A stretch of 64,000 nt of DNA from Natrialba swarupiae (GTDB taxonomy: Archaea > Halobacteriota > Halobacteria > Halobacteriales > Natrialbaceae). The stretch lies in contig NZ_VTAW01000003.1 of NCBI RefSeq assembly GCF_008245225.1, forward strand, positions 186,001 to 250,000. The letters are read 5' to 3'. The position numbers and the translations under genes were made by a program. The notes beneath the pieces were generated by a model. It saw nothing but the letters and a program-made list of their open reading frames with translations. It ran no database searches and had not been told where the DNA came from. This document shows, one piece after another, positions 16,914 to 24,012 of this stretch. The number at the start of each line of letters is the position of its first letter. Positions within the stretch are counted from its first letter, which is position 1.

Positions 16914-16921
16914 CTTTAAAT
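16914..16921 (+). promoter_or_regulatory. TATA box of the helicase-nuclease operon
   Basis: CTTTAAAT in an AT-rich stretch ending about 33 bases before the first ATG (16955) of the operon. Transcription would start near 16942, leaving a very short leader. It is the only promoter-like element seen for the three overlapping genes. Confidence 0.55.
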
Positions 16922-16954
16922 ACAAATTCGAACATACACGGTGACGTGTCAGAG

Positions 16955-19177
16955 ATGTCAACCGACCCTCCCCTCGAGGGGACGTGTAAACTCCGTCCCG
17001 GACCGATCGGCGATCCCGTCGACTCGGTCGCCGCCGAGTACACCGCCCTCGCAGACGAGTACGGGCCGCGAAACGTGCTCGTATTGAAACGTCACCCGGC
17101 CGGCCTCGAGCGCATCACGACGGAACTCTCCGACGTTGCGGCGACGACCGGCTCACCCCGCTCGCCACGGGTCGAATCGGTGCCCGAACACGCCTCCAAG
17201 GTCGTCGAGGAGTTCGACCCGACGCTCGACCGCCTCGAGTACGAAGAGCGGATCGAACTCATCTCGCTCGTGATCGACGGCACGAGTCGGGACGTCCCGG
17301 CGTACATAGAGCGGGCGTCGACACACGAGAGTTTCGTCCGCGACGTCGGCCAACTGTTGCTCGAGGCGACACGCCAGGGCATCCGCCTCGACGCCCTCGA
17401 GAGCGGGAGTGAGTCGCCACACGACTGTCTCGCGTTTCTCTACGCGATCAACGACCGATTCCACGAGGAGATCGCGAGCCGAGGCTACGTCGAGCGGGCA
17501 GACGTGATCCCCCGTGCAGTCGAGGTCCTCCAGGCCGACGTCGACGGGCTCCGAACTCGCGTGACCGACTCCGTCGACGCCGTTCTCGCCGTCGAGTTCG
17601 AGGAGTATCGCCGACTCGACCGTCGGTATCTCGCGGCGCTTTCCGAGGACGCGGATCTCGTCTGTCTCGGCGAACGCCACGCCAGCGTCGAACGAACGCG
17701 AGTCGAAACGGGGCGGATCGAAGACGCCGTCGGCGACGGTCTCGAGATCGAGACGCTCGAGGAGACGACCGCGGACGATGGTTCCTCGGGGACGGGCAGG
17801 AAAGACGGATCCCCTGACCGGACAGCGCACGAGGAACTGACGCGATTTCTCGCGACCGGCGAATCGCCCGCGGGACGGTCGGGTCGAGCGAAGCGAATCC
17901 GGACGCGGACCGAACGCGACCAGATCCGGGCCGTTGCGAGCGAGATCCGGTCGTTGCGTGAACGCCACGACTGGCGATACGACGAGTTCGCGGTCGCCGT
18001 CCCGCGGATCGAACGGGTTCCCGAGACGCGGCGATCGCTGCGCGAGGCGGGCGTGCCGACGGCGACGATCGGCACGCCGTCGCTGGCCGAAGATCCGGCG
18101 GTCAACGAACTGTATGCGTTCGTGACGGTCCAGTGTGAACGCGCCCGCGGCGGCGTCGAAACCGACCGCCAGGACCGCCGACGGGACGACGATCACGACG
18201 CCGCACTCGAGCGCCTGCGAGCGCGGGTGGACGACTTTTCGCCCGCCTTACTCGAGGCCTGTTCGGGCACGGGCGTCTCGCGGTCGCTCGCACGGTGGAT
18301 ACTCGAGACCGATCTGAAAGGACGGATCGCCGCGACCGAGGAGTGGGTCGACGCCCGCGAGCAGTACGAGGGTGTCAGACGGCTACTCGAGATCGCCCGC
18401 TTCGTCGAGGAGACGGATCTCGTCGGACCGGACTGGCGGGGGCTTCGGCGGATGCTCCGGCGAACGATCCGGTACGACGCACCGTACGTCCACACGGTCG
18501 ACGCGCGAGCGCCGACCGGCGGCGTGGCGGTTCGACCGATCGAGAACCTGAAGTACGACTCGCGGGAGGTCGTCTTCGTCCTCGACCTGATCGACGAGAT
18601 CTACCCCGGCGAGCAGTTTCTCACCCAGCTGTTCCCGACGGCCTGGCTCCGTGAACTGTCGACTTACCCCGCCGTCACCGACCTCTCGCCGGCCGCCGTC
18701 GACTCGACGTTCGCGCCGCCCTCGGGCGACGACGGCGTCGGTACCGCCTTCGAACGATACCACGCACAACGGTCCCGACGGCGGCTCGCGCTCGGATCGC
18801 GGGCCGCACGGAGCGCCCTCTATTGTTGTTCGTACGAACGGGGATCCGGCGGCCTCCGTCGAACGCACGACGAGTCGCGCTACCTCACGCTGATCGACTC
18901 GACCCCAGGCCTCGAACTCGAGGACGTCACCACCGACGCCACCTCGTCGGTCCGCGGCGCGACCAGCGCCGTGGAGACGATTCTCGAACAGCCCCACGGC
19001 GAACTCGAGCGGGTGCTCCGCGAGGCGAGCACCGGGGGCGAGGCGGATCTCGGCGAGACGGAAGCGCTGTTCTGTGAGATCGCCCTGGTTCTCGAGGGCG
19101 ACGTCGATCCCGATCTCGCGGCGGCGATCCGCTCGCAGTTCGAGTTCGCGGCGGGCGAGGTGATTCGTGATGAGTGA
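16955..19177 (+). CDS. AddB/RecC-like degenerate helicase subunit (operon gene 1)
   Basis: A 740-residue protein from ATG 16955 (MSTDPPLEGT). It resembles the helicase-fold part of AddB/RecC-type recombination proteins: an N-terminal strand-helix unit (NVLVLKRHPAGLERITTEL) sits where AddB has its P-loop but lacks GxxGxGKT, and near residue 525 VVFVLDLIDEIYPGEQFLTQLFP matches the late helicase region of AddB, where a loop ends in D-x-x-(Y/F/L)-P. A linker of about 60 residues (270-330) is low-complexity. No nuclease domain is present; the next gene could supply it. Role in DNA end processing is inference from fold cues and the operon. Confidence is moderate for the name, high for the gene. Confidence 0.7.
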   Translation: MSTDPPLEGTCKLRPGPIGDPVDSVAAEYTALADEYGPRNVLVLKRHPAGLERITTELSDVAATTGSPRSPRVESVPEHASKVVEEFDPTLDRLEYEERIELISLVIDGTSRDVPAYIERASTHESFVRDVGQLLLEATRQGIRLDALESGSESPHDCLAFLYAINDRFHEEIASRGYVERADVIPRAVEVLQADVDGLRTRVTDSVDAVLAVEFEEYRRLDRRYLAALSEDADLVCLGERHASVERTRVETGRIEDAVGDGLEIETLEETTADDGSSGTGRKDGSPDRTAHEELTRFLATGESPAGRSGRAKRIRTRTERDQIRAVASEIRSLRERHDWRYDEFAVAVPRIERVPETRRSLREAGVPTATIGTPSLAEDPAVNELYAFVTVQCERARGGVETDRQDRRRDDDHDAALERLRARVDDFSPALLEACSGTGVSRSLARWILETDLKGRIAATEEWVDAREQYEGVRRLLEIARFVEETDLVGPDWRGLRRMLRRTIRYDAPYVHTVDARAPTGGVAVRPIENLKYDSREVVFVLDLIDEIYPGEQFLTQLFPTAWLRELSTYPAVTDLSPAAVDSTFAPPSGDDGVGTAFERYHAQRSRRRLALGSRAARSALYCCSYERGSGGLRRTHDESRYLTLIDSTPGLELEDVTTDATSSVRGATSAVETILEQPHGELERVLREASTGGEADLGETEALFCEIALVLEGDVDPDLAAAIRSQFEFAAGEVIRDE

Positions 19178-20246
19178 GGGCGGCCTGGACGGTCCCCCAC
19201 AGCCAGTCGAACGCCTCTCGGTCGACGGCGTCGAGACCTACCTCCGGTGTCCGCGCCGGTACGAGTTTGCCCACGTCCACGACCTCGAGTCCGCCGGCGA
19301 GAACGGTGGCGCGGATCGGGTCGATCTGCTCCGACGAGCAATCTGTGGGGCGTTCCAAACCGGGAAGACCACAGACGACGCACTCCTCGAGGCCAGTCGG
19401 ACGACGCTGTCGGAGCAGTGGGCAGATCACGACGAGCGATTTCACTCCCGAACCCAGCGCCGACACGAGCGGACGGTGCTCGAGGCGACGCTCCGGGCGT
19501 ACGTCGAAGAGGTCGGAGTCGACCACGCTGGCGGCCTCGAGCGGTGTGTCGGCGGTAACGTGACGATGGCCGACGTCGTCGGCCCCGGCCTCACACTCTC
19601 GCGGACGGTGTCCCCGACGGCAGCCGAGGAGTCCGCCAACCCGGGGTCCGACGGTGATCCCCACCCGATCGAGATCGAGGCCGAGGTCGACTACGTCTTC
19701 CGCGACGGCTCGTCGCTCGTCGCGGCTCGGTTCGTGCCGACGCTCGCCCCGCTCGGCCTCCTCCGGTATCGATCCCGGTGGGAGGGCGACGTCGCCGGCC
19801 AGTTCGTCGATCACTTCGACCGCGAGAGCGACGTCTACGACCCCGCCGCCGTCGCCGCGTTGCTCGAGACGGCGGTCGTCCTCGACGGTCTCCGGCGTCT
19901 CCGGGATCGTCTCGACCTCGGCGGGAAGACGTGTCGCTACGTTCAGATTCCGCTCGCGGATCGCTCGCGGACGTCGGTCAACTGGGTTCGCGAATCAGTC
20001 GAGACGAGTCTCGAGATCGCCGATCTGACGGACGTCTACGTCGACCAGCACACGTACGGACTGACCCACGAACACCGAAACGAGACGGTCGACGGCCGCC
20101 TCGCCGCGATCGTCGAACGGATCGGTGCCGGGGAGTTCGATCCCACCGATCGGTGGGACCACGTCAGGCGGACGGCCTGCCCCGACTGTGGGTACGCGGT
20201 CTGCTGTCAGGACCACATCGCCTCGGAGGTGCAGTTCGATGGGTGA
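19170..20246 (+). CDS. RecB/AddB-type nuclease-fold protein with Fe-S cysteines, active site apparently lost (operon gene 2)
   Basis: A 358-residue protein starting at ATG 19170, overlapping gene 1 by 8 bases and preceded by a clear Shine-Dalgarno sequence (GAGGTGA, 19157-19163). C27 in YLRCPRRYEF and the C-terminal cluster C337, C340, C345, C346 (CPDCGYAVCC) match the split four-Cys iron-sulphur signature of AddB and Cas4-like nucleases. The expected PD-(D/E)xK core maps to EIEAEVDYVFRDGSSLVAARF; the first Asp is kept but the (D/E)xK triplet reads A-A-R. It therefore looks like a structural, non-cutting AddB C-terminal domain encoded separately. Confidence 0.7.
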   Translation: MSEGGLDGPPQPVERLSVDGVETYLRCPRRYEFAHVHDLESAGENGGADRVDLLRRAICGAFQTGKTTDDALLEASRTTLSEQWADHDERFHSRTQRRHERTVLEATLRAYVEEVGVDHAGGLERCVGGNVTMADVVGPGLTLSRTVSPTAAEESANPGSDGDPHPIEIEAEVDYVFRDGSSLVAARFVPTLAPLGLLRYRSRWEGDVAGQFVDHFDRESDVYDPAAVAALLETAVVLDGLRRLRDRLDLGGKTCRYVQIPLADRSRTSVNWVRESVETSLEIADLTDVYVDQHTYGLTHEHRNETVDGRLAAIVERIGAGEFDPTDRWDHVRRTACPDCGYAVCCQDHIASEVQFDG

Positions 20247-23200
20247 AGACGACGGGCTCGAGCCGAGGGGGAACCAGCGGACGGTCATCGAAAGCCGGGC
20301 GGCCTGTCTCTCCGTCGACGCCGGCGCTGGCACTGGAAAGACGACGACGATGATCGCTCGCCTCGAGCGTGCGATCGAACGCGGCGAGATCGACCCCGAC
20401 GGCGCGCTCGTGTTGACGTTCGCCAACGAGGCGGCGGGGAGCATCCGTGACGCGGTCGCCGACCGCCTCGGTCCGGAGACTGCGGCGGCGATCGACGTCC
20501 ACACCTACCACTCGTTCTGTTATCGGCTGGTCCGGGAGTACGCCTACGCGGTGGGCTACTCCCCCGAGTTCGAGGTGGTCACCGAACGCAAGCGCCGCCG
20601 GATCGTCGGTCGCCTGCTCGCCGAAAACGAGTACGAGTTCGCGGCCGCGTCGGGCGGCGACGGCTCGACGACCGACCTCGTCGACGCCGTCGAACGGTTC
20701 GTCCGGACGATGAGCCGCGAGGACGTCACGCCGGAGACGCTACGGGCGACCCTTCCCGATGTCCGGACGCTCGAGTTGTTGACCGAGTTCGTCCTCTGGC
20801 TCGAGAGGCAGGCGAGCGAAGAGCTCTCGTTCGACAACGAGGCGTTTCGGTTCTTCAACCGGGACGAACACCTCGAGGCGGGTCGCGAGTCGCTGGTCGA
20901 GTACGGCACGCTCATCTCGTTCTGCCGGGAGAAAATCGCCGAGGCACCGGCGGCGTTTCGCGACGACGAGGTGGTTCGCGACGTCGATCGGTACCTCCGG
21001 GTACTCCAGCGGTGCGTGACGAACACGATCGAGACGCTCTCGCTCGACGAACCGACGACGAAACAGCTTCCGCGCGCGCTGTTCGGCAACGAAATCTGGG
21101 GGCGGCGAACCGATCGACTCGAGCAGAGCCCGTTTGGACGACTGAAACACTACGTCGAGTTCCTCCGGCTTGCCCGCCACTACGTGGACGTCTACGCGGA
21201 TTACCACGAGCACCTGTCGAACGAGCGCGCGCTCGACTTCGACGAACTGGTGCGGACGGCGACGGGGCTGGTCCGCGGAGACGACGTGATGGGACGGATC
21301 GCTGGCGGCGGAGCGAACGGATCGCCCACCGGAGAATCGATCGCCGACGAGATCGCGACCCGGTGGGAACAGGTCTACTGCGACGAGTTCCAGGACACCG
21401 ACGAGACGCAGTTCGGCCTGATTACGGCGCTCACCAGCGGCCCCGACCGGCCAGATCTGCTCGCGATCGGCGACAAGGACCAAGCGATCTACGGCTGGCG
21501 CGGTACCGACCGCGAAGGGCTCGACAGGCTCGCCGAGAGCTACGACGACCACGAATCGATCGAACTCGGGCTCAACTTCCGGTCGCGCCAGGAGATACTG
21601 GACCTCGCGAATCACTGCGAGTACGGCCCACAGTCCTCGAAGACGTTGCGAGAGGTCGACCGCGAGTCCGGGACGGGCGGCGGGCCGACGGCGGGGGGAA
21701 GCGAGTGGACGGACGGCGACGCCGGCTCGGAGACCGACGGTGATCCGAACGCACGCCCGGATCGCGTCGTCAAAGTCGAAAGCGACGAGCTCGGCCTGTC
21801 GACGCCCGAGCAGGTGTCGACGACGGTCTCGAGGCTGTTGAACGGCGACTCCGAGAACGTGCCCCGCCGGTCGCTCGGCGATATCGCCGTCATCGTCCGG
21901 ACGAACCGCCACGCCCAGGCCGTCGCCGACGCGCTCCAGGAACGCCGGATTCCCCACGAGATCTCTGGATCGCCACGCGGAGAGATCGAACCCGGGATAC
22001 AGACGGTGCTGTCGTACTTTCGGGTGCTCGTCGATCCCGACTTAGACGCCCACCTCCGGCGTGTGCTGCTGTACCGCTATCGCCTCTCGGGGAGCGACCT
22101 CGAGACGCTCCAGCGTCGGGACGGATCGCTGTACGACGCCGTCTTTGACGTCGATTTAGGGACTCTCGAGCGTTCGGAACGCCTCGAGCGGGCGCGCGAG
22201 CATCTCGCCGAACTGGAGCGGATGCGTGACGTCTACCCGTTGCCGGGGTTCGTCCGTCGGTTCCGCGAACTGACCCGCCTCGAGTGGTTCCTGACGGCCG
22301 ACGAACGGGCCGACCTCGAGCGACTCGAGCGCTTCGTCGCGGCCTACGAGTCCGACGCGGCGATCCGCTCGCTCTCGACGGCGTTCGTCGACGGACTCGA
22401 GCGGACCCTCCGCGGGAGCGAACGCGAGCGCACTCGCGGCACGCGATCTGACGACCGGATCGACGTCATGACGGTCCACCAGGCGAAGGGCCTCGAGTTC
22501 GATACCGTACTCGTCCCCTACCTCTCCGACGAGGAGTGGTGTGTCGAGAACGATTACGCCGAGCGCGCCCGGTATCGACTGCTCGCGGCGACGCTCGACG
22601 ACGACGTCGACTCGCCGTTGCTCGCAGATCTCGCGGCCGAGACCGTCGCCGAGGAGTGGCGGGTGCTCCACGTCGCGCTCACCCGTGCCGAGAATCACCT
22701 GTTCGTCTTCGGCTCCCCCTACGAGTACGACGGTGGTGAGGACGAACTCGGCGTCTCGACCGCACAGGGCTGTCTACACGCCGAGATCGAGTGGTCGGTC
22801 GCCGGCGAGCGCATGGCGCTGTGGTCGTCGCTTTCCGAGAGCTTCGAGCGGGTTCGCGAGAGCTATCCCGACACCGTCGCGGATCGAACCGATGCGATCG
22901 CGCGCTCGGCGGACTCGAGTCCGGGCACGATCACCTACTACGCCGGCTACGACGACCGAAGCGTCGAACCCCTCGAGACGGACGAGGCGATCGGGACGGT
23001 CCACCGACTGGGCCGGTTGCTTCGCGACGGGACGCTGTTGCCGGCGGCCGACGCCGCGGACGCTCTCCGACGGGGAGACACCGTCGACCGCCCCGTTCGA
23101 GTACCGAGTGGCCGACAGCTCTCGGCGCTGACCCCCGAGACCACGCGGTTCCCGATCCAGTCGCTCTCGACGGCCTCGGAGTTGTCGGTCGCCATACGCC

Positions 23201-24012
23201 ACAGCTACACCGCGATGGAGACCCACGACACCTGCCCCCGGAAACACTACCTCGACCACGTCGTCCGTGCGATCGACGATCCGCTGGCAGGGACGACCCC
23301 GACGGCATCGGATCGGATCAGTCCGTCGGTCGCGCGTTCACGCGTCGTCGGAACGGTCTTCCACGACGTCGCGGAGGAGGCGTTCTACCGGGGGTATCGA
23401 ACCAGCGAAGAGTGGCGCGAGGCGGCGATCCGCCAGCTCACCGCCCGCGACCTCGGTGCCTACCGCGAGCCGGTACTCGACTGCGTCGATCGCTACTTCG
23501 CGGCGACCGTGCCCGGATTCGATCTGCCGGTCGCCGACTGGGACCAACTCGCCGCCGAGCGCCCGTTTTCGCTCGCGAACGTCTCCGGCGTGGCGGGCGA
23601 CGTGGTCGGCTACGTCGACTCGATCCGACGGCTCCCGCCAGTCGAGGCCGACGAAGCGCCGATCGACGGCGATTCCGGAGACCTCGTCGTCCTCGATTAC
23701 AAGGCCACCGCCGGGCGGATCGATCTCGCGGACGCGACCCAGCTGACGCTGTACGCTCGAGCCTGTCGACAGCGGTTCGACGAGCCGATCGCGGGGGTCG
23801 GCTACGTCTACGTCGGTGATTCGGGGCCCGCCGTCGACCTCTACGAGCCGGCGGCGTTGCCGTCGTGGTCTGCCGTCCGCGAGACTCTCGAGTCGGTCGA
23901 CGATCCGTCGTACGCGGAGACGTCCCCCGGTGAGCACTGCCGATACTGTCCGCACCGATCGCTCGGCTGTGCCCCCGAGGAGTTCACGCCCGCGGTCGCA
24001 GACGACGACTGA
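20239..24012 (+). CDS. AddA/RecB-like UvrD-family helicase with C-terminal Fe-S nuclease domain (operon gene 3)
   Basis: A 1257-residue protein from ATG 20239, overlapping gene 2 by 8 bases with Shine-Dalgarno GGAGGT at 20225-20230. All superfamily 1 helicase motifs are visible: Walker A AGAGTGKT (K34), motif II DEFQDTD (D382), GDKDQAIYGWRG, LNFRSR, MTVHQAKGLEFDTV near 745, and VALTRAENHLFVFG. The last 260 residues form a RecB-type nuclease: C999 in CPRKHYLDH, GYVDSIRR, the catalytic VVLDYKAT (D1153, K1155), then C1234, C1237 and C1244 (HCRYCPHRSLGC), an iron-sulphur set. It should unwind and cut DNA ends. Its TGA stop runs into a palindromic repeat. Confidence 0.9.
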   Translation: MGEDDGLEPRGNQRTVIESRAACLSVDAGAGTGKTTTMIARLERAIERGEIDPDGALVLTFANEAAGSIRDAVADRLGPETAAAIDVHTYHSFCYRLVREYAYAVGYSPEFEVVTERKRRRIVGRLLAENEYEFAAASGGDGSTTDLVDAVERFVRTMSREDVTPETLRATLPDVRTLELLTEFVLWLERQASEELSFDNEAFRFFNRDEHLEAGRESLVEYGTLISFCREKIAEAPAAFRDDEVVRDVDRYLRVLQRCVTNTIETLSLDEPTTKQLPRALFGNEIWGRRTDRLEQSPFGRLKHYVEFLRLARHYVDVYADYHEHLSNERALDFDELVRTATGLVRGDDVMGRIAGGGANGSPTGESIADEIATRWEQVYCDEFQDTDETQFGLITALTSGPDRPDLLAIGDKDQAIYGWRGTDREGLDRLAESYDDHESIELGLNFRSRQEILDLANHCEYGPQSSKTLREVDRESGTGGGPTAGGSEWTDGDAGSETDGDPNARPDRVVKVESDELGLSTPEQVSTTVSRLLNGDSENVPRRSLGDIAVIVRTNRHAQAVADALQERRIPHEISGSPRGEIEPGIQTVLSYFRVLVDPDLDAHLRRVLLYRYRLSGSDLETLQRRDGSLYDAVFDVDLGTLERSERLERAREHLAELERMRDVYPLPGFVRRFRELTRLEWFLTADERADLERLERFVAAYESDAAIRSLSTAFVDGLERTLRGSERERTRGTRSDDRIDVMTVHQAKGLEFDTVLVPYLSDEEWCVENDYAERARYRLLAATLDDDVDSPLLADLAAETVAEEWRVLHVALTRAENHLFVFGSPYEYDGGEDELGVSTAQGCLHAEIEWSVAGERMALWSSLSESFERVRESYPDTVADRTDAIARSADSSPGTITYYAGYDDRSVEPLETDEAIGTVHRLGRLLRDGTLLPAADAADALRRGDTVDRPVRVPSGRQLSALTPETTRFPIQSLSTASELSVAIRHSYTAMETHDTCPRKHYLDHVVRAIDDPLAGTTPTASDRISPSVARSRVVGTVFHDVAEEAFYRGYRTSEEWREAAIRQLTARDLGAYREPVLDCVDRYFAATVPGFDLPVADWDQLAAERPFSLANVSGVAGDVVGYVDSIRRLPPVEADEAPIDGDSGDLVVLDYKATAGRIDLADATQLTLYARACRQRFDEPIAGVGYVYVGDSGPAVDLYEPAALPSWSAVRETLESVDDPSYAETSPGEHCRYCPHRSLGCAPEEFTPAVADDD

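Follow-up and report, generated by a model that had tools for sequence, protein, structure and literature searches.

What kind of enzyme is encoded by three tightly overlapping genes on the forward strand of the Natrialba swarupiae genome? The genes lie in a 64,000-nucleotide stretch of DNA (contig NZ_VTAW01000003.1, positions 186,001 to 250,000), hereafter the window, in whose numbering all features are located below. The original prediction took them for an AddAB/RecBCD-like helicase–nuclease in an archaeon, with a new, three-part architecture. The AddB match of gene 1, the architecture of gene 3 and the linkage of the genes support the former proposal, and the operon probably encodes a DNA-end-processing helicase–nuclease of the AddAB/RecBCD kind, composed of three co-translated polypeptides, with its AddB half split. 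The latter proposal needs rewording: there are indeed three polypeptides, but instead of three components they would form a split AddB and an AddA-like subunit.

Genes 1 and 2 resemble a divided AddB

Gene 1 (16955–19177, + strand; 740 amino acids) has no convincing family model in Pfam, NCBIfam or PADLOC; its weak NCBIfam matches to aRF1 and methionine sulfoxide reductase were dismissed as chance. When a profile of 44 rows was compared with the Protein Data Bank (PDB), AddB (3u44_B) came first, with an E-value of 2.4e-9, followed by UvrD1 (1e-7) and PcrA. The AlphaFold2 model (predicted local distance difference test, pLDDT, 77.8; predicted template modelling score, pTM, 0.79) has the fold of a superfamily 1A (SF1A) helicase, with Foldseek E-values of about 1e-21 to 1e-19 to PcrA, UvrD and AddB, and its residues 8–731 align to residues 2–768 of Bacillus subtilis AddB (Z about 21 over 614–626 residues). 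A Walker A GK(S/T) motif was found within the first 70 residues in 0 of 105 copies, and the Walker B motif is degenerate, of the EFEE type. Gene 1 is accordingly a predicted helicase fold without ATPase motifs. Both profile and fold bear out the earlier view of it as AddB's helicase part lacking a P-loop, and it corresponds to about residues 2–768 of AddB.

Gene 2 (19170–20246, + strand; 358 amino acids) matches PDDEXK_1 in Pfam and corresponds to the C-terminal iron–sulphur (Fe-S) PD-(D/E)XK domain of AddB, here a protein of its own. Its model (pLDDT 87.9, pTM 0.88) finds AddB as its best match, residues 11–356 aligning to AddB 785–1138 with a Z score of 15.2 over 282 residues; AdnA, Cas4-family and Exo5 nucleases come next. 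Since the gene 2 profile returned only chance matches among PDB sequences (lysozyme, a potassium channel) and was uninformative, the identity of gene 2 rests on the fold and on profile–profile comparison. In the latter, against fused archaeal proteins that are AddB by profile (E 2.2e-42), gene 1 aligns to the N-terminal part and gene 2 to the C-terminal part, and a joined profile of the two genes matches the fused protein with an E-value of 6e-21 over nearly its full length.

Together, gene 1 (to residue 768) and gene 2 (from residue 785) tile AddB with almost no gap or overlap, and the order of genes 1, 2 and 3 is that of addB and addA. As part of the same explanation, and with the same good confidence, we regard genes 1 and 2 as one AddB-type subunit divided into two proteins. 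The original prediction had described gene 2 as a separate nuclease; its cysteine-bearing PD-(D/E)XK fold stands, but it would be the AddB C-terminal domain, apparently dead in this genome, and not an extra nuclease. We discarded the idea that gene 2 adds a third subunit, since it aligns to the stretch of AddB following that of gene 1. Nor can the split be put down to a recent frameshift or an assembly break in addB: all loci read, from many genera, encode the two as separate polypeptides, and gene 2 comes with a start codon, a Shine-Dalgarno site and an overlap of its own.

Gene 3 is a predicted motor–nuclease

Gene 3 (20239–24012, + strand; 1257 amino acids) combines a UvrD-type SF1A motor with a C-terminal Fe-S PD-(D/E)XK nuclease, the architecture of AddA, and matches UvrD_N, UvrD_C and PDDEXK_1 in Pfam. 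The motor domains (20272–22707, + strand; residues 12–823) carry a Walker A motif GAGTGKT and a Walker B motif CDEFQDT, and the nuclease domain as delimited by Pfam (23203–23961, + strand; residues 989–1241) contains the catalytic triplet D1153-Y1154-K1155 (23695–23703, + strand), whose Asp and Lys are identical in all 99 copies covering the site. Across 104 copies there is no variation in the Walker A Lys, the Walker B Asp-Glu, Q415 or R448; nor is there any in R816, H1042, D1127, D1153 and K1155 wherever covered (99–104 loci), and the Fe-S-type cysteines C999, C1234, C1237 and C1244 are invariant in the copies that reach them. Gene 3 thus has the look of a working SF1A motor joined to an Fe-S-type nuclease, as had been proposed when it was called a complete AddA-like protein.

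That description holds for the architecture; membership of AddA in the phylogenetic sense is not established by the trees described below. Gene 3 misses all NCBIfam cut-offs for AddA equivalogs by a wide margin (121 versus 708 bits, 95 versus 861 bits), its profile ranks PcrA and AdnB above AddA in the PDB, and its best profile match among the groups compared is to UvrD–Cas4 fusions, again above AddA. PADLOC 2.0.0 returns nothing for genes 1 and 2, and for gene 3 the GajB and DRT helicase models, matched through its UvrD domain.

Conserved linkage and coupling of the three genes

The open frames overlap by 8 bp at both junctions. A Shine-Dalgarno sequence for gene 2, GAGGTGAT (19157–19164, + strand), lies within gene 1, 5 nt upstream of the gene 2 start, and one for gene 3, GGAGGTG (20225–20231, + strand), lies within gene 2, 7 nt upstream of the gene 3 start; gene 1 has only a weak 5-nt match. 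These overlaps and strong sites, noted from the outset, recur in the relatives. In the class of loci to which the window belongs, Shine-Dalgarno matches of at least 6 nt precede gene 2 in 53 of 64 loci and gene 3 in 51 of 62; in the sister class, which differs in gene 2 as set out below, the figures are 30/40 and 34/40. The overlaps measure 8 or 4 bp almost everywhere. Such recurrence argues against chance, and the overlaps with their Shine-Dalgarno sites are best read as putative translational coupling held by selection. A TATA-box-like sequence, TTTAAATA (16915–16922, + strand), read from the sequence 33 nt upstream of the gene 1 start, suggests by its position a short-leader or leaderless operon transcript.

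The genes also stay together. They were found side by side in all of the first 30 loci examined, and in order on one strand in 101 of 103 modelled loci (a count that includes some species twice, reached through two collections), while of the other two one lies at the end of a contig and one is broken. Neither outcome that would have told against the original prediction, the absence of an SF1 helicase fold in gene 1 or unlinked genes in most relatives, was observed. Broken or partial copies comprise a fragmented gene 1 (L133:4161-6867), a gene 3 of only 529 amino acids (L041:6204-7793), an isolated piece of gene 1 (L257:8928-9992) and, on a plasmid of Natronomonas pharaonis, an unannotated C-terminal remnant of gene 3 (L275:7878-8855).

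Two classes of gene 2

The loci fall into two classes according to gene 2. In the sister class, 40 loci have the DYK set and 39 of these 40 the complete H-D-D-K constellation. In the class of the window, the His, the second Asp and the Lys are replaced in all readable loci, R-D-R-V being the commonest combination, so that the first Asp alone remains of the four columns. In the window itself, R55 (19332–19334, + strand) occupies the position of the nuclease His, and R187-F188-V189 (19728–19736, + strand) that of the catalytic D-Y-K. The four Fe-S-type cysteines are retained in both classes, with the exception of one Tyr in locus L039 and of two damaged or truncated copies; here they are C27 (19248–19250, + strand), which is Cys in every readable copy, and C337-x2-C340-x5-C346 (20178–20207, + strand). 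To judge from these residues, the gene 2 product of this genome is a catalytically dead pseudo-nuclease.

It is apparently not a decaying one. The ratio of non-synonymous to synonymous substitution rates (dN/dS) of gene 2 is 0.15–0.46 in seven pairs from the class of the window, where the gene is by this measure still under purifying selection; as the frame is open in all but one broken copy and the cysteines are kept, a pseudogene was rejected. In the tree of the motor gene the intact and the lost gene 2 classes form separate groups (support 100/100 and 100/99), so that a single loss of the active site suffices. With that site lost, the clade of the window is, on sequence grounds, a one-nuclease, RecBCD-like version of the system, and its sister clade a two-nuclease, AddAB-like one.

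Relationship to known helicase–nucleases

Several observations weigh against the reading of genes 1 and 2 as a split AddB partnered by gene 3. The gene 1 model, of medium confidence (pLDDT 77.8), aligns to UvrD with a Z score of 24.6 over 437 residues, slightly above its score with AddB, and its root-mean-square deviation from AddB is about 7 Å over all domains. AdnA fits the models of genes 1 and 2 almost as well as AddB does, and the joined profile of the two genes matches UvrD–Cas4 fusions as well as AddB. Lastly, plasmid phalar01 of the halophilic archaeon DL31 (L292:1-9411) carries a homologue of gene 3 but no annotated partner for it.

This solo homologue, together with the stand-alone UvrD–Cas4 fusions of bacteria and mesophilic archaea (Hudaiberdiev et al. 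2017, PMC5704561), might indicate that gene 3 acts alone as a UvrD–nuclease, genes 1 and 2 being accessory or regulatory and no AddB-like half existing. The conserved coupling of the three genes and the full-length tiling on AddB make this very improbable. The fusions share with gene 3 a UvrD motor and a Cas4-like pfam12705 nuclease on one chain; they differ in standing alone or with restriction–modification genes, and the section consulted reports no AddB-like partner for them. In our trees, the four sampled UvrD–Cas4 proteins form a clade apart from gene 3.

Alternatively, the operon may be AdnAB-like, with genes 1 and 2 as the AdnA-type partner and gene 3 as the AdnB-type motor. Both halves resemble actinobacterial AdnAB in fold and domain order, the score of gene 3 against AdnB is good, and in one tree AdnB is the sister of gene 3 (88/88). 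However, with a single AdnAB sampled, that position involves a long branch, and in the other tree AdnB joins AdnA. Moreover, the gene 1 profile is far closer to AddB than to AdnA (E 2.4e-9 against 0.036), the sampled AdnA has a P-loop that gene 1 lacks, and the partner's nuclease domain is here a separate gene. An AdnAB-like identity therefore appears improbable.

A more serious contender is a genuine AddAB, whether inherited or acquired from bacteria, whose addB merely happens to be broken into two genes. The tiling of the AddB fold, the addB–addA gene order and the rank of AddB as the best profile match of gene 1 would agree with it, and placement of gene 3 with AddA is not rejected by the approximately unbiased (AU) test (P 0.136). 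Yet in both best trees gene 3 forms its own clade (100/100) on a long stem outside AddA and RecB, its neighbours among UvrD, UvrD–Cas4 and AdnB shifting with sampling, and its profile rankings and missed cut-offs point away from AddA. Furthermore, genuine AddB–AddA pairs coexist on haloarchaeal plasmids. We thus consider a broken bacterial-type AddAB unlikely, without dismissing it.

The likeness to B. subtilis AddAB (PDB 3u44, 4cei) is nonetheless extensive, since it also covers the motor–nuclease architecture of gene 3, the Fe-S-type cysteines of the AddB half and, in the sister clade, two nuclease sites. The differences are equally distinct. The AddB half is split, gene 1 lacks Walker A, gene 2 is apparently dead in the clade of the window, and in the best trees the motor is not part of the AddA clade. 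Gene 3, too, has four Fe-S-type cysteines, which are known as a feature of AddB rather than of AddA. With Escherichia coli RecBCD the clade of the window, alone, would share the combination of one motor–nuclease and an inactive, RecC-like helicase–nuclease partner; in contrast to RecBCD, the operon has no RecD-like gene (gene 2 has a PD-(D/E)XK fold, and the flanking genes encode CBS and NUDIX proteins), gene 2 keeps its Fe-S-type cysteines, the partner is split, and RecB branches with AddA.

Other archaea in the same phylum (L249, L251–L254) have canonical two-gene AddB–AddA systems, and so do haloarchaeal plasmids, as exemplified by the pair WP_012289693/WP_012289692 on Halobacterium salinarum plasmid PHS3 (L271:3931-10615) and a second pair at L272:3772-10591. 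As in our operon, the AddB-like gene overlaps the AddA-like gene; unlike in our operon, AddB is one protein, and the AddA proteins form a clade distinct from gene 3. These plasmid pairs are annotated merely as PD-(D/E)XK nuclease and UvrD-helicase proteins, and one of them, in Natrinema caseinilyticum, adjoins BrxA and McrBC-like genes. A plasmid of Natronosalvus caseinilyticus (L274:5420-10877) encodes a very divergent overlapping pair, a PD-(D/E)XK protein of 860 amino acids and a UvrD-type helicase of 960, unplaced in the tree.

With its motor in a clade of its own, and a place inside AddA/RecB or AdnB not established, the operon is most fittingly regarded as a distinct AddAB-like lineage. 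By its anatomy it would work in the manner of AddAB/RecBCD; membership of AddAB is not established. Our literature search, whose reach left out most subscription journals, found no published description of the operon.

Distribution and genomic context

Gene 1 is present in 55 of 100 sampled relatives, its nearest named relatives being Natrialbaceae, and strong matches in a sample of the phylum are restricted to the order of the window. A scan of 84,980 species genomes, made with one short pattern and hence of limited reach, gave matches in Halobacteria only. The UvrD-type relatives found in viral contigs (21–38% identity) and in phage records (none of which reached 80% coverage) are distant and mostly partial, and no close copy of the system came up in either.

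In Natrialbaceae, the class of the window occupies a fixed chromosomal spot beside CBS, NUDIX, oxidoreductase and proS genes, and the other classes have nothing of this context. Copies of the sister class are often on plasmids, near a DEAD/DEAH helicase and DNA methyltransferase pair resembling type III restriction genes, AAA ATPase and phosphodiesterase genes. On a Natrinema zhouii plasmid (L268:7239-18363), the two genes directly ahead of the two-nuclease trio, one for a 'DNA repair exonuclease' and one for a large AAA ATPase, resemble a Mre11–Rad50 pair; a further copy lies beside a methyltransferase and a metallophosphoesterase, and another amid transport and siderophore genes. The solo gene 3 homologue of DL31 adjoins DUF87 (HerA-like), NurA-domain and SMC genes, with a transposase in between.

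These plasmid neighbours raise the question of whether the chromosomal operon, too, serves mainly in antiviral defence and not in repair, the more so as UvrD–Cas4 fusions have been proposed as defence components (PMC5704561). The fixed place of the Natrialbaceae operon beside the CBS, NUDIX, oxidoreductase and proS genes and the nature of the PADLOC matches, which arise only through shared helicase domains, speak against this, and we hold a chiefly antiviral role of the chromosomal form to be unlikely, if worth keeping in mind. For the plasmid copies, action against foreign DNA, or plasmid upkeep, is more likely.

Proposed mechanism and role

From the domains, motifs, folds, linkage, coupling signals and conservation observed, an assembly, a direction of movement, an activity and a role may be proposed. 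Gene 3 would be the sole ATP-driven motor; it would load on a duplex end and travel 3′ to 5′ on one strand, cutting with its C-terminal Fe-S nuclease. Gene 1, an ATPase-dead helicase fold, would take in the opposite strand and separate the duplex, and gene 2 would complete the AddB half, the split point coinciding with the junction between the helicase-like part and the C-terminal Fe-S nuclease domain. Genes 1 and 2 would thus form a passive AddB half guiding the other strand.

AddAB has two nucleases, each cutting one strand; RecBCD has just the RecB nuclease, which cuts both. If anatomy is a guide, RecBCD-like behaviour is expected of the type of the window and AddAB-like behaviour of its sister. 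In the former, gene 2 would be structural, as its active site is lost and its Fe-S site kept, and gene 3 would be the only nuclease; in the latter, the catalytic set kept in gene 2 would allow AddAB-like cutting.

For the chromosomal version, end resection and degradation at breaks seem the likely task. That is also the job of HerA–NurA with Mre11–Rad50, whose proteins are unrelated to those of the operon, and a plain replacement of HerA–NurA, to which the original prediction had lent itself, is not what the genome suggests. A NurA-family match (PF09376) lies elsewhere in it (G000:C72:116095-117039), and there are Rad50/SMC-type ATPase matches as well; the operon would hence add to the other end-processing genes and not replace them. 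The same PF09376 search also finds matches in Haloferax volcanii, described in a 2020 review (PMC7776575) as having neither HerA nor NurA, and a search for the Rad50 zinc hook was uninformative, as it misses H. volcanii as well.

It is tempting to go further and to see in the operon a fourth separate lineage of the RecBCD/AddAB/AdnAB type, native to haloarchaea, in which the B half has permanently become two proteins, and which passed once from two nucleases to one through loss of the gene 2 active site with its Fe-S site kept, the chromosomal form now being a housekeeping resection enzyme of Natrialbaceae. We advance this broader scenario tentatively, as quite possible though somewhat short of probable.

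Implications

Databases list 'DNA helicase UvrD', 'PD-(D/E)XK nuclease' and 'ATP-dependent DNA helicase' as unrelated entries, so that a system made of these parts readily escapes notice. H. volcanii tolerates deletion of mre11 and rad50, and recombination in the mutants is raised, not lowered (PMC7776575). For the resection of DNA ends in haloarchaea, an AddAB-like machine that is coupled and holds a constant chromosomal position in most of the sampled Natrialbaceae would be a direct candidate in this family. The division of AddB suggests that its halves can function as separate chains, and the two clades offer a natural before-and-after pair for studying what the second nuclease contributes to AddAB and why it was dispensable in RecBCD.

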